Below, one piece after another: positions 2,748-28,347 of a DNA stretch of 64,000 bases. The stretch is from SAR202 cluster bacterium (GTDB lineage: Bacteria > Chloroflexota > Dehalococcoidia > Lucifugimonadales > Lucifugimonadaceae), in the NCBI GenBank assembly GCA_008373205.1, contig RQOS01000060.1:47936-111935 (forward strand), read 5' to 3'. Position 1 is the stretch's first letter; each line of letters begins with the position of its first letter. Made by a program: the position numbers and the translations under genes. The notes beneath the pieces were generated by a model. The model did no database searches. It worked only from the letters and a program-made list of their open reading frames with translations, and was not told the DNA's origin.

Positions 2748-4007
2748 TTAGATACTTTCAAAACCTGTATAGGGTATCAAAACTTCAGGAATTTTAATAC
2801 TTCCATCTTCTTGCTGACCATTTTCTATTATAGCTACCCAAATTCTTGGGAGAGCTAGACCTGATCCATTTAAGGTATGAGGGAAAATTGTTGATGAAGC
2901 TTGAGTTTCTTTATATCTAGTATTATTTCTTCTAGACTGAAAATCATAACAATTAGATATAGATGAAACTTCTAGCCATTCCTTAGAACCAGCAGCCCAA
3001 ACTTCAATATCAAATGTTATAGCAGATTGAAAACCTATATCTCCGGTTGATAGTTGAATCAATTTAGAGCTTAACTCTAATCTATCGCAAAGAGTTCTTG
3101 CATTATCTATCATTGATTCTAAATGTTCTTCAGAATCATCTGGATGAACGTACTTAAACATCTCAACTTTATAAAACTGATGTACCCTTTTTATACCTCT
3201 AATATCTCTACCTGCAGAAGTATGTTCTTTTCTAAAACTTGGGGTTCTTGCGACATAACTTTTTGGTAAACTAGCTGGAGTTATAATTTTACCTTGATGT
3301 AGACCATTTAATGAAACTTCAGCGGTAGGTATTAGCCAAAGATCAGTTTCATCATCTCTATATAAATTGTCTTTAAATTTTGGTAAATTTCCAGATCCTA
3401 TCATTGTTTCTTGCTTTACTAAATAAGGAGGATCAATTTCTTCATACCCAAATTCATCCGTATGTACGTCCATCATCCAGTTCATCAAAGCTCTATGTAG
3501 TCGTGCACCTTTCCCTTTAAATACAAAAAATCTAGCACCTGATATATTTGCACCTGCTTCTAAGTCTAAAATATCTTTCTCTGGGCCTATGTCCCAATGA
3601 GGTTTTATATAATTTTCATCTCTTTGTACTCCAATTACATCTTTTTCTATATTTGAATTCTCATCCTCTCCTATGGGGACATTTTTATCTGGTAAATTTG
3701 GAATATTAAGCATAATTTCTTTTATTTTTTCATTTATAACAGCAAGCTCTTCATCTACTTTTTTTAATTCTCCAGATAGCTTTTTTATGAATAAACTTTC
3801 TTCAGATGTTGGTTTTCTTTTCTCTTGTCCAATTTTTTTTGAAATTTCATTTCTTGTTGATCTTTTATCGTCACCATCAGAAATATAATTACGTCTTTTA
3901 GTGTCTAGTTCTACTAATATATCCAGATTGGAAATATCATAGCCTCTATTTGATAAGCCTTCAGAAAAAATTTCTTTATTTTCTATAATCTTTTTTATAT
4001 CTAACAT
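2748..4007 (-). CDS. serS: Seryl-tRNA synthetase
   Basis: Class II motifs, N-terminal coiled coil, TAEVSLNGLHQGKI, SISNCYDFQSRR. Confidence 0.96.
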   Translation of the reverse strand: MLDIKKIIENKEIFSEGLSNRGYDISNLDILVELDTKRRNYISDGDDKRSTRNEISKKIGQEKRKPTSEESLFIKKLSGELKKVDEELAVINEKIKEIMLNIPNLPDKNVPIGEDENSNIEKDVIGVQRDENYIKPHWDIGPEKDILDLEAGANISGARFFVFKGKGARLHRALMNWMMDVHTDEFGYEEIDPPYLVKQETMIGSGNLPKFKDNLYRDDETDLWLIPTAEVSLNGLHQGKIITPASLPKSYVARTPSFRKEHTSAGRDIRGIKRVHQFYKVEMFKYVHPDDSEEHLESMIDNARTLCDRLELSSKLIQLSTGDIGFQSAITFDIEVWAAGSKEWLEVSSISNCYDFQSRRNNTRYKETQASSTIFPHTLNGSGLALPRIWVAIIENGQQEDGSIKIPEVLIPYTGFESI

Positions 4008-5491
4008 TATTTTTTACTTCTTAATTGTGGAAATAACAAAACTTCTCTAATTTGATCTTGAGCTGTAATAAGCATTATTAATCTATCAATACCAATACCC
4101 AAACCTCCAGTTGGAGGCATACCATGTTCAATTGAAATAAGGAAATCTTCATCTAGCCTATCAGCCTCTTTATCTCCAAGATTTTTTCTTTGTTTTTCTT
4201 GTTCTAAAAATCTATTCCTTTGATCAATAGGATCATTTAATTCTGTAAATGCATTTGCCAATTCATGGCCCAATACAAATGCTTCAAATCTTTCTACTAC
4301 ATCTTTAGATCCAGGTTTTAACTTTGCTAAAGGAGACATTTCTATTGGATAATCTAATAGAAATGTAGGTTTAATGAGTTTAGGTTCAACTCCTTGTGAG
4401 ATCAATCTGTCAAGCAATATTCCCCAAGCCTCATTCTGGTCAGCAACAAACCCTTTATTCTTCATTTCATTGGCTAAATCATTATTATTTTTAAACTTCA
4501 AAAAATCTATCCCTGTATTATCAATAATAGCTTTTCTTAAATCTAGTCTTTGCCAAGGTGGTGCTAAATCAATAGTAAGATCATCAGATATATTAATTTT
4601 TGTAGTTCCATTTACTTCAATTGAAACATAAGAGACTAAATCTTCAACCATTCTCATAACAGTATTATAGTCTTCATAAGCTTCATATGATTCCATAGTT
4701 GTGAATTCAGGATTATGATCATGATCAATTCCTTCATTCCTAAATAATCTACCTATTTCATAAACTTTTTCAATTCCACCTACTATCAATTTTTTTAAGT
4801 GAAGTTCTGTGGCTATTCTTAAAAAAAGGTCTTTCTCAAGAGACTCATGATAGGTTGAAAAAGGTATTGCCCTGCCACCAGCTGGAATATCAACCAATAT
4901 AGGGGTTTCTACTTCCAAAAAACCTCTATTATTCATAAAGTTTCTTACTGATGAAATAGCCTTAGATCTTTTCACAGCAATTTCTAGAGACTCCTCATTA
5001 GAAATAAGATCTAAATATCTTTGCCTATATCTTATTTCATTATCTTTTAAACCCGACCATTTATCAGGTAAAGGCCTTATTGCTTTGGTCAGAATAACAA
5101 TATCGTGTAAATCTAAGGTAAGCTCTCCTCTACGAGTTCTAAATAAATGTCCCTCTACTCCAACAATATCTCCAATATCAATTAAATCTAAAAAGTCTTT
5201 ATTTATTTCGGATTCTTCTTCCTTATAATGTAATTGAATTTTTCCTGATTGATCTTTGATATCAAAGAATATAATTTTTCCCATTGCTCTTTTAGCAATA
5301 ATTCTTCCAGAGATGCATAATTGCTTAGAATTAGCACTTTCATTGGAATCATCATATGCTGTAATAGCATCATGGATTATAGTTCGATCTTTCTCCCATC
5401 TATTTGGATAGGGATCAATTTTTAATTTTCGTAATTTTTCAAGTTTTTCAAGTCTATCTTTAATTATTCTGTCTTCAGATAAGTTTTCCAT
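4007..5491 (-). CDS. lysS: Lysyl-tRNA synthetase, class II
   Basis: GRIIAKRAMGKIIFFDIKDQSGKIQ OB fold; class II core; GGLGIGIDRLIMLI. Confidence 0.96.
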   Translation of the reverse strand: MENLSEDRIIKDRLEKLEKLRKLKIDPYPNRWEKDRTIIHDAITAYDDSNESANSKQLCISGRIIAKRAMGKIIFFDIKDQSGKIQLHYKEEESEINKDFLDLIDIGDIVGVEGHLFRTRRGELTLDLHDIVILTKAIRPLPDKWSGLKDNEIRYRQRYLDLISNEESLEIAVKRSKAISSVRNFMNNRGFLEVETPILVDIPAGGRAIPFSTYHESLEKDLFLRIATELHLKKLIVGGIEKVYEIGRLFRNEGIDHDHNPEFTTMESYEAYEDYNTVMRMVEDLVSYVSIEVNGTTKINISDDLTIDLAPPWQRLDLRKAIIDNTGIDFLKFKNNNDLANEMKNKGFVADQNEAWGILLDRLISQGVEPKLIKPTFLLDYPIEMSPLAKLKPGSKDVVERFEAFVLGHELANAFTELNDPIDQRNRFLEQEKQRKNLGDKEADRLDEDFLISIEHGMPPTGGLGIGIDRLIMLITAQDQIREVLLFPQLRSKK

Positions 5492-24504: not shown

Positions 24505-24533
24505 TTTACATTATTATTATCAAAATTTATGAT
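24505..24533 (+). promoter_or_regulatory. Candidate sigma70-type promoter TTTACA-N17-TATGAT
   Basis: Spacing and consensus match; predicted start site only a few nt before the leader ATG. Confidence 0.45.
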
Positions 24534-24546
24534 AATATATAGAATC

Positions 24547-24618
24547 ATGAGAAATGAAATTTTAACAAAAGAAAACTGTATGTGTTGCTGTTGTCCTAAC
24601 CGTTACGGGTTTCTTTGA
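24547..24618 (+). CDS. Cys-rich regulatory leader peptide MRNEILTKENCMCCCCPNRYGFL
   Basis: 23-codon ORF with 5 Cys codons in 6, directly upstream of a terminator hairpin and a sulfur-uptake operon. Confidence 0.75.
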   Translation: MRNEILTKENCMCCCCPNRYGFL

Positions 24619-24654
24619 TGTGCTAAATTCTATTTCATGACATAAGCTATAAGG

Positions 24655-24678
24655 AACCCCGAGAGGGGTTTTTTTTTT
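24655..24678 (+). terminator. Rho-independent terminator (attenuator) AACCCC-GAGA-GGGGTT-T8
   Basis: 6-bp perfect stem, GAGA tetraloop and 10-T run, 10 nt before the YeeE ATG. Confidence 0.88.
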
Positions 24679-24688
24679 GGGAAATTTT

Positions 24689-25921
24689 ATGACTACTAAA
24701 GCTAAAAATTCATATTATTCAACTCAATTTTTTATTGGGCTCATATTACTTTTTTCAATTTTTATTATTAGTTATCTTATATCAAACAATAATTTTTCAG
24801 ATGCCGCTATTTGGTTAGCAGCTTCAGCATTAGGATTTACCTTGCAAAAATCTCGCTTTTGTTTTGCATCTTCATTTAGAGATTTATTTTTATTCGGCTC
24901 TGGGCAAAATATGAAAGGTGTTCTTATAGCAATTGGAGTAGCTTCTATAGGTTTCGTTGGTATATTAAGTTGGATTCTCCCTAGCCCATTACCTGGAGAA
25001 TATCCTTCTTCAGCACATGTTTTACCTGTAGGAATATCAACAATCATTGCAGGGACTTTATTTGGGATAGGAATGGTGACAGCCGGAGGCTGTGTCTCAG
25101 GAACAATATATAGAATCGCTGAAGGATATGTTGCTTCGGTCGTAACGATGATTGGAATATTCATTGGAACAATTTTGTTGATTATTAGTTGGGATTTTTG
25201 GTGGGATTCACTTATTAGTAATGAAAGTAAAATATTTTTACCTTCAACTTTTTCATTAGGTTATGGATTTAGCTTAGCAATAACATTATTGATTCTTGTA
25301 GGAATATACATACTAATTGTTTTAGTAGAATCTAAATCTGGAATTAGTGAATTTAGTATAAATAAAAAAATCGAACCTAACATTAAGAGTTTTTCAGAAA
25401 AAATTAATGAAAATTTTATAAATATCTTTTCTAACAGCTGGTCTGCAAAAACTGGAGGTCTTGGTATTGGATTTATAGCTATTATTTATTTTTTATTTCA
25501 CTCACCACCTGGAGTAACGGGTGAAATAATGAAACAATCAATGAGCTTATCTGAATCTCTTAACTTTTCTGAGGGAATGCTAAAAGGGATTTCATCATTG
25601 AGTGGATGCCTAGGAGCTAGCGTAGGACAAGGACTTATATCTCATACTTTTGTTAGCACAATTGGAGTTTTTTATGGAGCATTAGTTTCAGCTCTTATGG
25701 CCAAGGAATTCAAGATAAGAACACCAAATGATCCTAAAAGATATATTCAGTCTTTAGGTGGTGGAATAATGATGGGCTTCTCTGCAAGCTTAGGCATTGG
25801 ATGTACTATTGGAGCATTTTTTTCCGCAGTGTCATCTCTGTCACTTTCTGGATGGGTTTTTGGACTAAGCTTATTTGTTGGATCTTTTGTCGGTACAAAA
25901 ATTATTAAGGCGATTGGTTAA
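24689..25921 (+). CDS. YeeE/YedE-family sulfur (thiosulfate-type) transporter
   Basis: KSRFCFASSFRDLFLF; GMVTAGGCVSGTIYRIAEG; SGCLGASVGQG; SLGIGCTIGAFFSA. ATG at 24689 preferred over TTG at 24677. Confidence 0.9.
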   Translation: MTTKAKNSYYSTQFFIGLILLFSIFIISYLISNNNFSDAAIWLAASALGFTLQKSRFCFASSFRDLFLFGSGQNMKGVLIAIGVASIGFVGILSWILPSPLPGEYPSSAHVLPVGISTIIAGTLFGIGMVTAGGCVSGTIYRIAEGYVASVVTMIGIFIGTILLIISWDFWWDSLISNESKIFLPSTFSLGYGFSLAITLLILVGIYILIVLVESKSGISEFSINKKIEPNIKSFSEKINENFINIFSNSWSAKTGGLGIGFIAIIYFLFHSPPGVTGEIMKQSMSLSESLNFSEGMLKGISSLSGCLGASVGQGLISHTFVSTIGVFYGALVSALMAKEFKIRTPNDPKRYIQSLGGGIMMGFSASLGIGCTIGAFFSAVSSLSLSGWVFGLSLFVGSFVGTKIIKAIG

Positions 25922-25923
25922 AA

Positions 25924-26148
25924 ATGAATATTACAAATGAAATCAATTTAATAGACAAACCTGTAAAAGATCAACTTTTAGCAGTGGAGGAAATATTAGA
26001 AAGTATTAGCTCAGAAAATTCAATAGAAATAATAACAAATGAGGAATTATTAATAAAATACATTCCTCCAAAAGCAATAGAGAAAAAAATAAAAATAAAA
26101 CTTAAATTAAAAAATGAAAATTGGCATATTCATTTAGAAAAGGAGTAA
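25924..26148 (+). CDS. Small hypothetical protein, possibly TusA/DUF2249-like fold
   Basis: Lies between YeeE and TusA; pattern ILESISSENSIEIITNEELLIKYIPPKAIEKK...WHIHLEK loosely resembles DUF2249. Confidence 0.5.
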   Translation: MNITNEINLIDKPVKDQLLAVEEILESISSENSIEIITNEELLIKYIPPKAIEKKIKIKLKLKNENWHIHLEKE

Positions 26149-26150
26149 AA

Positions 26151-26387
26151 ATGTCTAATAATGAAACAAAAAAATTAGATCTTAGGGGAGAAATTTGCCC
26201 TTACCCAATGCTAAAAACGAACGAAGAATTAGATGCAAATAAAAATATAGACATTCTTGAAGTTATTACTGACCATTCACCTGCATTATCAACAATACCT
26301 CCTCAAGCACTTAAGAGAGGCTATGATGTAGAAATTGATGAAATAGATAATAGTGAATGGAAAATAACACTTACAAAAGAAAAATAA
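26151..26387 (+). CDS. TusA-family sulfur carrier
   Basis: LDLRGEICPYPMLKTNEEL; AAAAGGAG ribosome-binding site before ATG at 26151. Confidence 0.92.
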   Translation: MSNNETKKLDLRGEICPYPMLKTNEELDANKNIDILEVITDHSPALSTIPPQALKRGYDVEIDEIDNSEWKITLTKEK

Positions 26388-26410: not shown

Positions 26411-27319
26411 ATGAAAAAAATAATAATAATAATATCTGTAATGATTTCTGTATTTGTAGCTTGTAGCTCTCAATCTACAGATAATTCTTTTGAAGCTAGA
26501 GGTTACTCAAGTACAGATAAATTAGTATCTGCAGAATGGCTAGAAGAAAATATAAATGATGTAAAAATTATAGACGTTAGAAAACAAGAAGATTATGACC
26601 AAGGGCATATTCCTGGCGCATTAAGACTCACACCAAATGAAGTTTTTCAATGGGAAGATGAAAATGGAGTTAAGGGAATGCTCCCATCAGGAGATCATAT
26701 AGCTAAGGCTTTAAGTGACATTGGAATAAATGAAGAAGATACCATAATTTTTTATGATGGAAATAGTAATCTTTGGGCATCCAGAGGTCTGTGGGCATTA
26801 GAGGTTTATGGGCATGAAGATTCTAGATTATTAGATGGATCTTGGAACTATTGGTTAGAAAATAATTATCCTACGAGTACTGATTCAGGATCAATTGAAA
26901 AATCTGATTATAAATTTTCCGGAAATGCAAATACTCAGCTTATAGCAGATTTTGAAGAAATTCTTGATTCTGTAGATGATCCTTCTAAAATTGTATGTGA
27001 TACAAGAAGCCCAGATGAATATACGGGTAAAGATGTAAGGGCTGATAGAGGTGGGCATATTCCTGGTTCAGAGAATGTAAATTGGGTAAATGCTGTTGAT
27101 GAAACAGGTAAGTTTCTAAGTGCAAAAGATTTAGAAGCAATATATGATAGCAAAGGTATAAAAACTGATAAAGCTGTATACACATTATGCCAAACAGCTG
27201 TTAGAGCAACTCATACATGGTTTGTCTTACAAGAACTTTTAGGCTATGATAATGTAAAAGTTTATGACGGATCTTGGATTGAATGGGGAAACTCAGATTT
27301 ACCAATAGAAACGAAATGA
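26411..27319 (+). CDS. Tandem-rhodanese lipoprotein sulfurtransferase
   Basis: Lipobox VFVAC; two rhodanese domains; catalytic LCQTAVRA in domain 2 only. Confidence 0.92.
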   Translation: MKKIIIIISVMISVFVACSSQSTDNSFEARGYSSTDKLVSAEWLEENINDVKIIDVRKQEDYDQGHIPGALRLTPNEVFQWEDENGVKGMLPSGDHIAKALSDIGINEEDTIIFYDGNSNLWASRGLWALEVYGHEDSRLLDGSWNYWLENNYPTSTDSGSIEKSDYKFSGNANTQLIADFEEILDSVDDPSKIVCDTRSPDEYTGKDVRADRGGHIPGSENVNWVNAVDETGKFLSAKDLEAIYDSKGIKTDKAVYTLCQTAVRATHTWFVLQELLGYDNVKVYDGSWIEWGNSDLPIETK

Positions 27320-28347
27320 GTATAGAAGAAGAAAAAGAAAATTTAGAATACGGGCTGCCTAGTCACGAGGATATGCAAAGACAAGGCAAGCCTGTAAAAT
27401 TTGGAACAGCCCCTTTCATATATCAAATTGATGGTAATGAATGGGGTAATATTCCAGATGATTGGACTTTAAAAGAAGCTACTTCTGTTGCTGTAAATAG
27501 TATTGATGAAATCATAGTTTTTAATAGAGGAACGAAGCCTATAATGATTTTTGATATTGACGGTAATCTTTTAAGATCTTGGGGAGAAAATATATTCACT
27601 AATGCACACGGAATTAGTGTTGATAGTTTTGATAATATTTATTGCGTTGATTCTGGAGATAATACTGTAAGAAAATTTACTTCTTCTGGAGAGCTTATTT
27701 ATCAGATAGGAAAAGAAGGTGAGAGAGCTGAGAAAATGAGTGGACTGCCTTTTGCTGTGCCAACACAAGTAGCTGTAGATGAAGAAAATAATGATATATA
27801 TGTAGCCGACGGTTATTCAAATGCTAAGGTGCATAAATATAATCAAGATGGAGAATATTTATTTTCTTGGGGGGAATCAGGAACAGGAGAAGGTCAATTT
27901 AATATAGTCCATAATATATCAACCGATAGAAATGGGCTAGTTTATGTTGCAGACAGAGAAAATCACAGGATCCAAATTTTTGACTCCGAGGGTAAATATA
28001 TAGATCAATGGATCAATTTATCTAGAGCAGCATGTCTATACATTGATAAAAGAGGCAATGAGGATATTTTTTATGTCGGAGAATATTTTTCTGGAATTGC
28101 TTCAAATGATACTGGTAAAGATTTAGGTCCTAGGATTTCAATTTTTGACAAAACGGGTAAGTTATTATCTAGACTTGGTGTAGAAAGTTATGGACCAGGT
28201 GTAGGAAGATTTTATTCTCCTCATGGAATTTCAGTAGATTCTCAAGGCAATATATATGTTGCTGAAGTCTCTTATAGTGATTATGGGCAATTCTTAAATC
28301 CAAAGAGAGAGCTTAGGTCTTTGCAAAAATTAAGTAAAATTAATTAG
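27316..28347 (+). CDS. NHL-repeat beta-propeller protein
   Basis: Repeated NGLVYVADRENHRIQIFDSEGKYIDQW / PHGISVDSQGNIYVAEV blocks; ATG at 27316 overlaps the rhodanese stop. Confidence 0.88.
   Translation: MSIEEEKENLEYGLPSHEDMQRQGKPVKFGTAPFIYQIDGNEWGNIPDDWTLKEATSVAVNSIDEIIVFNRGTKPIMIFDIDGNLLRSWGENIFTNAHGISVDSFDNIYCVDSGDNTVRKFTSSGELIYQIGKEGERAEKMSGLPFAVPTQVAVDEENNDIYVADGYSNAKVHKYNQDGEYLFSWGESGTGEGQFNIVHNISTDRNGLVYVADRENHRIQIFDSEGKYIDQWINLSRAACLYIDKRGNEDIFYVGEYFSGIASNDTGKDLGPRISIFDKTGKLLSRLGVESYGPGVGRFYSPHGISVDSQGNIYVAEVSYSDYGQFLNPKRELRSLQKLSKIN

Follow-up and report, generated by a model that had tools for sequence, protein, structure and literature searches.

A cysteine-codon leader upstream of a sulfur-transport gene cluster

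The 64,000-nucleotide stretch of SAR202 DNA analysed here (the window) carries on its forward strand a gene for a YeeE-type transporter, followed by genes for sulfurtransferases. We infer that the genes listed below form one operon, with the NHL-repeat gene probably its last member; a class-V aminotransferase gene (SufS-like cysteine desulfurase) lies divergently upstream of the leader.

24689-25921, + strand: yeeE/yedE (tsuA-like) sulfur/thiosulfate transporter (PF04143, E 1.3e-59), first gene of the operon
25924-26148, + strand: small ORF of 74 aa between yeeE and tusA
26151-26387, + strand: TusA-family sulfurtransferase, YeeD-like partner (PF01206, E 6e-18)
26411-27319, + strand: rhodanese, two-domain sulfurtransferase and putative lipoprotein (PF00581)
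27283-28347, + strand: NHL-repeat protein (PF01436), overlapping the rhodanese ORF

Upstream of yeeE is a short open reading frame rich in cysteine codons, accompanied by a set of RNA segments that can pair in alternative ways.

24505-24533, + strand: promoter-like pair TTTACA-17-TATGAT
24547-24618, + strand: leader ORF of 23 codons, MRNEILTKENCMCCCCPNRYGFL*
24577-24594, + strand: regulatory tract Cys-Met-Cys-Cys-Cys-Cys
24598-24601, + strand: region 1, AACC
24607-24615, + strand: region 2, GGGTTTCTT, formed by the three sense codons that precede the leader's stop codon
24651-24660, + strand: region 3, AAGGAACCCC, common to antiterminator and terminator
24651-24678, + strand: intrinsic terminator consisting of a 10-bp stem, a GAGA loop and a T run that reaches 24678

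Cys codons begin at 24577, 24583, 24586, 24589 and 24592, with a Met codon at 24580, and the stop codon at 24616 directly follows region 2. Both the 23-codon leader with its coordinates and the Cys tract interrupted by one Met agree exactly, base for base, with what an earlier note on this DNA had described. That note had also proposed two competing structures, a nine-nucleotide helix between regions 2 and 3 and a hairpin of regions 3 and 4 followed by a T run, and folding reproduced the two. The antiterminator (2:3) pairs GGGTTTCTT (24607-24615) with AAGGAACCC (24651-24659) through nine pairs, one of them G:U, and 24604-24660 folds at -14.0 kcal/mol (z -2.6). The terminator (3:4), AAGGAACCCC-GAGA-GGGGTTTTTT (24651-24674), folds at -13.0 kcal/mol. 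Both helices use region 3, and they are mutually exclusive. For the third proposed helix, between regions 1 and 2, AACC can pair with GGTT at 24608-24611, at -6.4 kcal/mol, yet the helix is weak, with only 4 bp, and its co-variation is modest (below). An imperfect extension of this helix into the Cys codons is possible.

Two scans gauged how often a terminator follows a Cys tract by chance. A scan of both strands of the window found one intrinsic terminator, that at 24651-24678. A wider census used 1.25 Mb of the closest well-assembled relative, a 97% complete congener (G004). Of the 377 Cys tracts that lie there near a stop codon on either strand, just one has a terminator 3′ of it, and this one is the yeeE leader. 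A whole-genome search for the pattern TGYTGYTGY was rejected as a way of finding leaders, its matches coming mostly from other reading frames. As a separate observation, the pattern search returned a TGYTGY repeat run elsewhere in the window's own genome (L026-L030, L159-L160; G000:C12 ~4122-4172).

The leader and its competing helices are conserved across genera

The transporter gene yeeE is carried by 49 of 250 genomes of the order. A poly-Cys leader lies upstream of it in about 27 of the 49; about 19 lack such a leader, and three are fragmentary. Four of the roughly 27 leaders are weak, being N-containing, cut off, dispersed in their Cys codons or reduced to CSC. Outside the order, none of 21 yeeE loci examined in the class has a convincing Cys leader. 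Within the order, the leader N-termini and the spacing within the peptide are not conserved, and the tract itself ranges from CC to CCCCCCC; Cys tract, antiterminator and terminator are kept. The Cys tract is thus the part of the peptide that persists in the alignment, and conservation of a Cys-tract leader upstream of YeeE homologues, which the earlier note had named as a check on its proposal, was found.

Leader, tract, 2:3 and 3:4 helices and a downstream sulfur-uptake gene occur together over many genera with compensatory changes, so that the mechanism the earlier note had proposed is well supported, least so in its 1:2 hairpin. In some leaders the helix sequences are wholly different and the pairing is kept, as with GTGAGGT/ACCTCAC (L015) and GGCTGGGGTGTGG/CCACACCCCAGCC (L088). 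When partners were swapped among 16 divergent leaders, the own region 2 and region 3 pairs summed to -235.3 kcal/mol against -156.2 +/- 11.9 kcal/mol for permuted pairs, and none of 20,000 permutations did as well. The corresponding values for the 1:2 helix in 16 leaders were -137.5 and -118.3 +/- 8.5, with 247 of 20,000 swaps as good, a figure that serves as a guide only since the 16 leaders lack full independence and the place of region 1 was set from the fitted region 2. The partner-swap test was used in place of RNAalifold, which on the alignable subset recovered the terminator alone with zero compensatory pairs, because helix sequences are identical among close relatives and the divergent leaders misalign.

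Ribosome position is predicted to select between the helices

We consider it very likely that this element controls the yeeE-tusA-rhodanese operon by ribosome-mediated transcription attenuation, with the availability of charged tRNA-Cys as its input. Judged from its sequence, the cysteine-codon attenuator appears real, with Cys-tRNA charging most likely its signal and import of reduced sulfur most likely what it controls; cysteine or Cys-tRNA as the signal, and termination itself, are what we infer. Translation of the leader would begin at an AUG at, or a few nucleotides from, the 5′ end of the mRNA. With ample Cys-tRNA, the ribosome would reach the stop codon at 24616 and cover region 2, leaving region 3 free to pair with region 4, and transcription would terminate. 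With Cys-tRNA short, it would stall within CMCCCC with its front edge just short of region 2, which could then capture region 3 and allow the polymerase to read into yeeE. If the leader were not translated, upstream structure including the 1:2 helix would occupy region 2 and the terminator would form.

Spacing and folding are consistent with this scheme. The last Cys codon begins a median of 15 nt (range 8-23, 41 leaders) 5′ of the point where region 2 starts to pair, a distance that fits how far a ribosome extends beyond its A site. In ribosome-masked folding of 23 leaders, region 3 was already paired before region 4 was made with a mean probability of 0.64-0.69 when the ribosome sat on the Cys tract, compared with 0.21 with the ribosome at the stop codon. 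The window's own leader gave 0.86 and 0.10, respectively, and 0.20 without a ribosome, so that region 3 is then mostly free. When the full-length RNA is folded to equilibrium, the terminator is often favoured over the antiterminator, with a mean P(term) of 0.71-0.81 even when the ribosome is stalled on Cys codons. The switch must therefore be kinetic, as in classical attenuators.

The best -10-like hexamer ends 6-9 nt 5′ of the start codon in 30 of 40 leaders, and a Shine-Dalgarno-like tetramer is present in 1 of 40; together these make a leaderless, or nearly leaderless, start probable. In the window, the promoter-like pair at 24505-24533 matches at 10 of 12 positions, a quality of site that is as frequent in the region as chance predicts. 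A second candidate, the extended -10 TG-A-TAATAT, has its last base at 24538, 8 nt 5′ of the ATG. Both candidate hexamers imply a start codon no more than about 7 nt from the 5′ end. A leader without room for a Shine-Dalgarno site is one of two features that go beyond the earlier note; the other is that the element belongs to a set.

The same device precedes other sulfur, redox and amino-acid genes

We ran a covariance model of the yeeE leaders over the order. Matches precede genes for a DUF4395 membrane protein, a ThiF-family enzyme, AhpC/TSA peroxiredoxins, a CysK-like enzyme, a Thioredoxin_9 protein and three proteins without a Pfam match. Here and below, the names metY, aroG, CysK and threonine synthase were assigned from Pfam class and a reading of the sequences.

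Cys attenuators before DUF4395: L224-L228, L230-L232, L236
Cys attenuators before ThiF: L229, L235, L197, L140
Cys attenuators before peroxiredoxin: L191, L194-L196, L202
Cys attenuator before the CysK-like gene: L200
Cys attenuators at other genes: L187, L189, L192, L198, L199

The DUF4395 leader in the window's own genome (L232) reads MKNMNEKNICCCMRNERFL, and a peroxiredoxin (AhpC/TSA) leader reads MKFYLTQTCCCCCCQDDNGVTSRV. Seventeen leaders of genes other than yeeE behaved in the 2:3 swap test as the yeeE leaders had (own pairs -200.8, permuted -149.4 +/- 11.4 kcal/mol; 0/20,000).

Terminators offered a second route to such leaders. The 1.25 Mb of the congener contain 37 intrinsic terminators, 15 of which precede a gene; intrinsic terminators being this rare in the lineage, a good share of those before genes would be attenuators. 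Among the short ORFs in front of the 15 is the yeeE Cys leader; others are a CC leader upstream of ThiF, MELFVKTMNMNMMMTFLKGDV* upstream of metY (O-acetylhomoserine sulfhydrylase) and MNKNYYTYYYFRLAESF* upstream of the DAHP synthase gene. Leaders with Met or Tyr tracts were found at the following places.

Poly-Met leader before metY, with terminator: L237/L233, own genome, G000:C62 ~3384-3521
Poly-Met leader MNNFLNNNMMMMSFSKGDV* before a threonine-synthase-like gene, with terminator: L234, own genome, G000:C65:2-129
Poly-Met leader with terminator and strong antiterminator pairing: L238
Poly-Tyr leader MNKNYYTYYYFRLTESF* upstream of aroG (class I DAHP synthase), with terminator and 2:3 pairing: L268, own genome but outside the window, G000:C60 immediately 5′ of 21847; also L267/L141 (G004)

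The three own-genome leaders L237, L234 and L268 have strong 2:3 pairing and a 13-nt gap. The metY gene of other families lies behind the poly-Met leader MNFTAMQNMRFMMMYMMMCTML... (L245) or a mixed Met-Cys leader, MMCCVMGSCM (L240, L241), again with terminator and strong antiterminator pairing.

These leaders bear on what is sensed. A Cys-rich nascent chain could arrest the ribosome in response to thiol redox state or a metal and not to tRNA charging, leaving the RNA switch unchanged, and the presence of the element upstream of peroxiredoxin- and thioredoxin-like genes would suit a redox signal. Arrest of this kind is nonetheless unlikely here: the N-terminal residues and intrapeptide spacing are not conserved and tract length varies severalfold, and Met tracts at metY and Tyr tracts at aroG in the same genomes form the pattern expected of codon sensing. 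Sensing of the codon over sensing of the peptide is argued most strongly by this match between the tract residue and the pathway to which the downstream gene belongs.

Since relatives repeat the switch before other sulfur and redox genes, codon-sensing attenuation looks like a sulfur control system of the whole lineage, and the yeeE attenuator is of more interest as part of a set of Cys, Met and Tyr attenuators spanning the lineage than alone. We think it probable, with less assurance than for the yeeE element itself, that the lineage's main sulfur amino acid regulators are codon-reading leaders on leaderless or nearly leaderless mRNAs in genomes where terminators are otherwise rare. These would comprise a Cys regulon (sulfur import, activation of sulfur carriers by ThiF, DUF4395, peroxiredoxin- and thioredoxin-like genes, CysK), poly-Met leaders before metY and the threonine-synthase-like gene, and in one family mixed Met-Cys leaders before metY. 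Sharing of the Cys leader hints that its downstream genes, including those for proteins of unknown function, may have a role in cysteine or sulfur supply or in redox.

Relation to known attenuators and cysteine-rich leaders

The trp, his, leu and phe attenuators of enterobacteria follow a four-region logic, with regulatory codons before region 2 and an intrinsic terminator. All of this is shared by the SAR202 element, which differs in sensing cysteine, in having a transporter and sulfur-transfer genes as its target, in its stop codon directly after region 2 and in a leader that is not led by a Shine-Dalgarno site. It has the codon run, the intrinsic terminator, the exclusive 2:3 helix and a stall position that would leave region 2 free. 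As far as sequence can tell, it has the features of a trp/his-type attenuator, the 1:2 hairpin being its weakest part.

Poly-Cys uORFs were predicted in mycobacteria in 2005, without terminators (PMC1262725). Later work found that they respond to cysteine and described translational control of operons led by leaderless uORFs (Canestrari et al. 2020, as cited in PMC9031893, PMC9094748 and PMC13236596). As far as these sources describe them, they share with the yeeE leader a Cys run near the stop codon, a start that in the yeeE leader too is probably leaderless or nearly so, a place upstream of sulfur or cysteine genes and the proposed signal; as described there, they also lack a conserved terminator, act on translation and belong to high-GC Actinobacteria. 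In contrast, the SAR202 case has a complete terminator/antiterminator switch, in a low-GC marine member of the Chloroflexota and upstream of a transporter. The mycobacterial example raises the alternative that stalling alters access to the yeeE ribosome-binding site, for which the same type of peptide and the probable near-leaderless start speak (PMC9031893, PMC13236596). We regard translational attenuation as quite improbable, and somewhat more so than nascent-chain arrest: almost all cases have a conserved intrinsic terminator, complete with U-run, in the interval from leader to gene, the helix that competes with this terminator takes up its 5′ arm, and the mycobacterial leaders were reported without terminators (PMC1262725).

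Another known relative in design is the uORFC-8-2 motif upstream of cysS in Rhodobacterales, which has tandem Cys codons and a U-run terminator and for which attenuation by Cys-tRNA was proposed (PMC8632094). It shares with the yeeE leader a Cys-codon uORF, an intrinsic terminator with a U-run and the proposed dependence on Cys-tRNA charging; it has two Cys codons inside the first stem, a single target, cysS, and a range of one alphaproteobacterial order, and 2:3 antiterminator co-variation is not reported for it in the text consulted. The SAR202 case, unlike it, has up to seven Cys codons, a covarying 2:3 helix and several target genes, and belongs to another phylum. The yeeE leader therefore works like the mycobacterial uORFs and uORFC-8-2 and belongs to neither by position or taxon.

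Transcription attenuation also accounts better for the leader than two further explanations, each of them very improbable. A functional Cys-rich peptide, for instance a metal-binding one whose message the terminator merely ends, would agree with a short translatable ORF and clustered Cys residues, yet the peptides diverge outside the tract and those residues that region 2 encodes, and the leader coding sequence overlaps and co-varies with the antiterminator. A riboswitch or T-box with an incidental ORF would agree with a terminator-bearing 5′ leader upstream of an amino-acid-related operon, yet the ORF and three helices account for almost the entire leader, in which no Rfam family scored at its gathering threshold and a loose threshold gave nothing relevant either (the best weak leader-type match, Phe_leader, reached 20.7 bits where the cut-off is 55).

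Within open-access papers, a search that is no proof of absence, we found no precedent for poly-Met attenuators; the same literature yielded no report of attenuators in SAR202-type Chloroflexota.

Sulfur setting of the switch

In characterised bacteria YeeE imports thiosulfate with a TusA-like partner, YeeD (PMC11073785), and the SAR202 YeeE would do likewise in its host. Searches of seven congeners, with positive controls, found neither sulfite reductase (PF01077) nor PAPS reductase (PF01507) above the cut-off. A genus without assimilatory sulfate reduction probably depends on imported reduced sulfur for its cysteine; the absence of these reductases fits a published suggestion of a possible reliance of SAR202 on reduced sulfur (PMC5864207). 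At L053, from a different family of the order, the leader is followed by yeeE, a small ORF, tusA, rhodanese and sulfite reductase; the ORF, of 77 aa, occupies the same place as the 74-aa ORF of the window, is similar to it and has no Pfam match.

If attenuation by cysteine codons is borne out, an abundant, uncultured ocean lineage unable to reduce sulfate would tune its uptake of reduced sulfur through its own cysteine codons, tying YeeE-type sulfur import to cysteine supply and reusing one RNA device across several genes. It would provide a full cysteine attenuator with an intrinsic terminator that is backed by covariation, and would extend cysteine attenuation to the Chloroflexota. It would also give clues to the function of DUF4395 and of further uncharacterised genes that carry the same leader, and a lead to poly-Met attenuators.

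A separate observation concerns the transporter itself. Six YeeE homologues from other Dehalococcoidia (L287-L292) each contain one in-frame TGA at the same place, opposite or beside a conserved Cys of YeeE (PGT*V compared with SGCLG, at about residue 307 of the window protein); this codon probably encodes selenocysteine.
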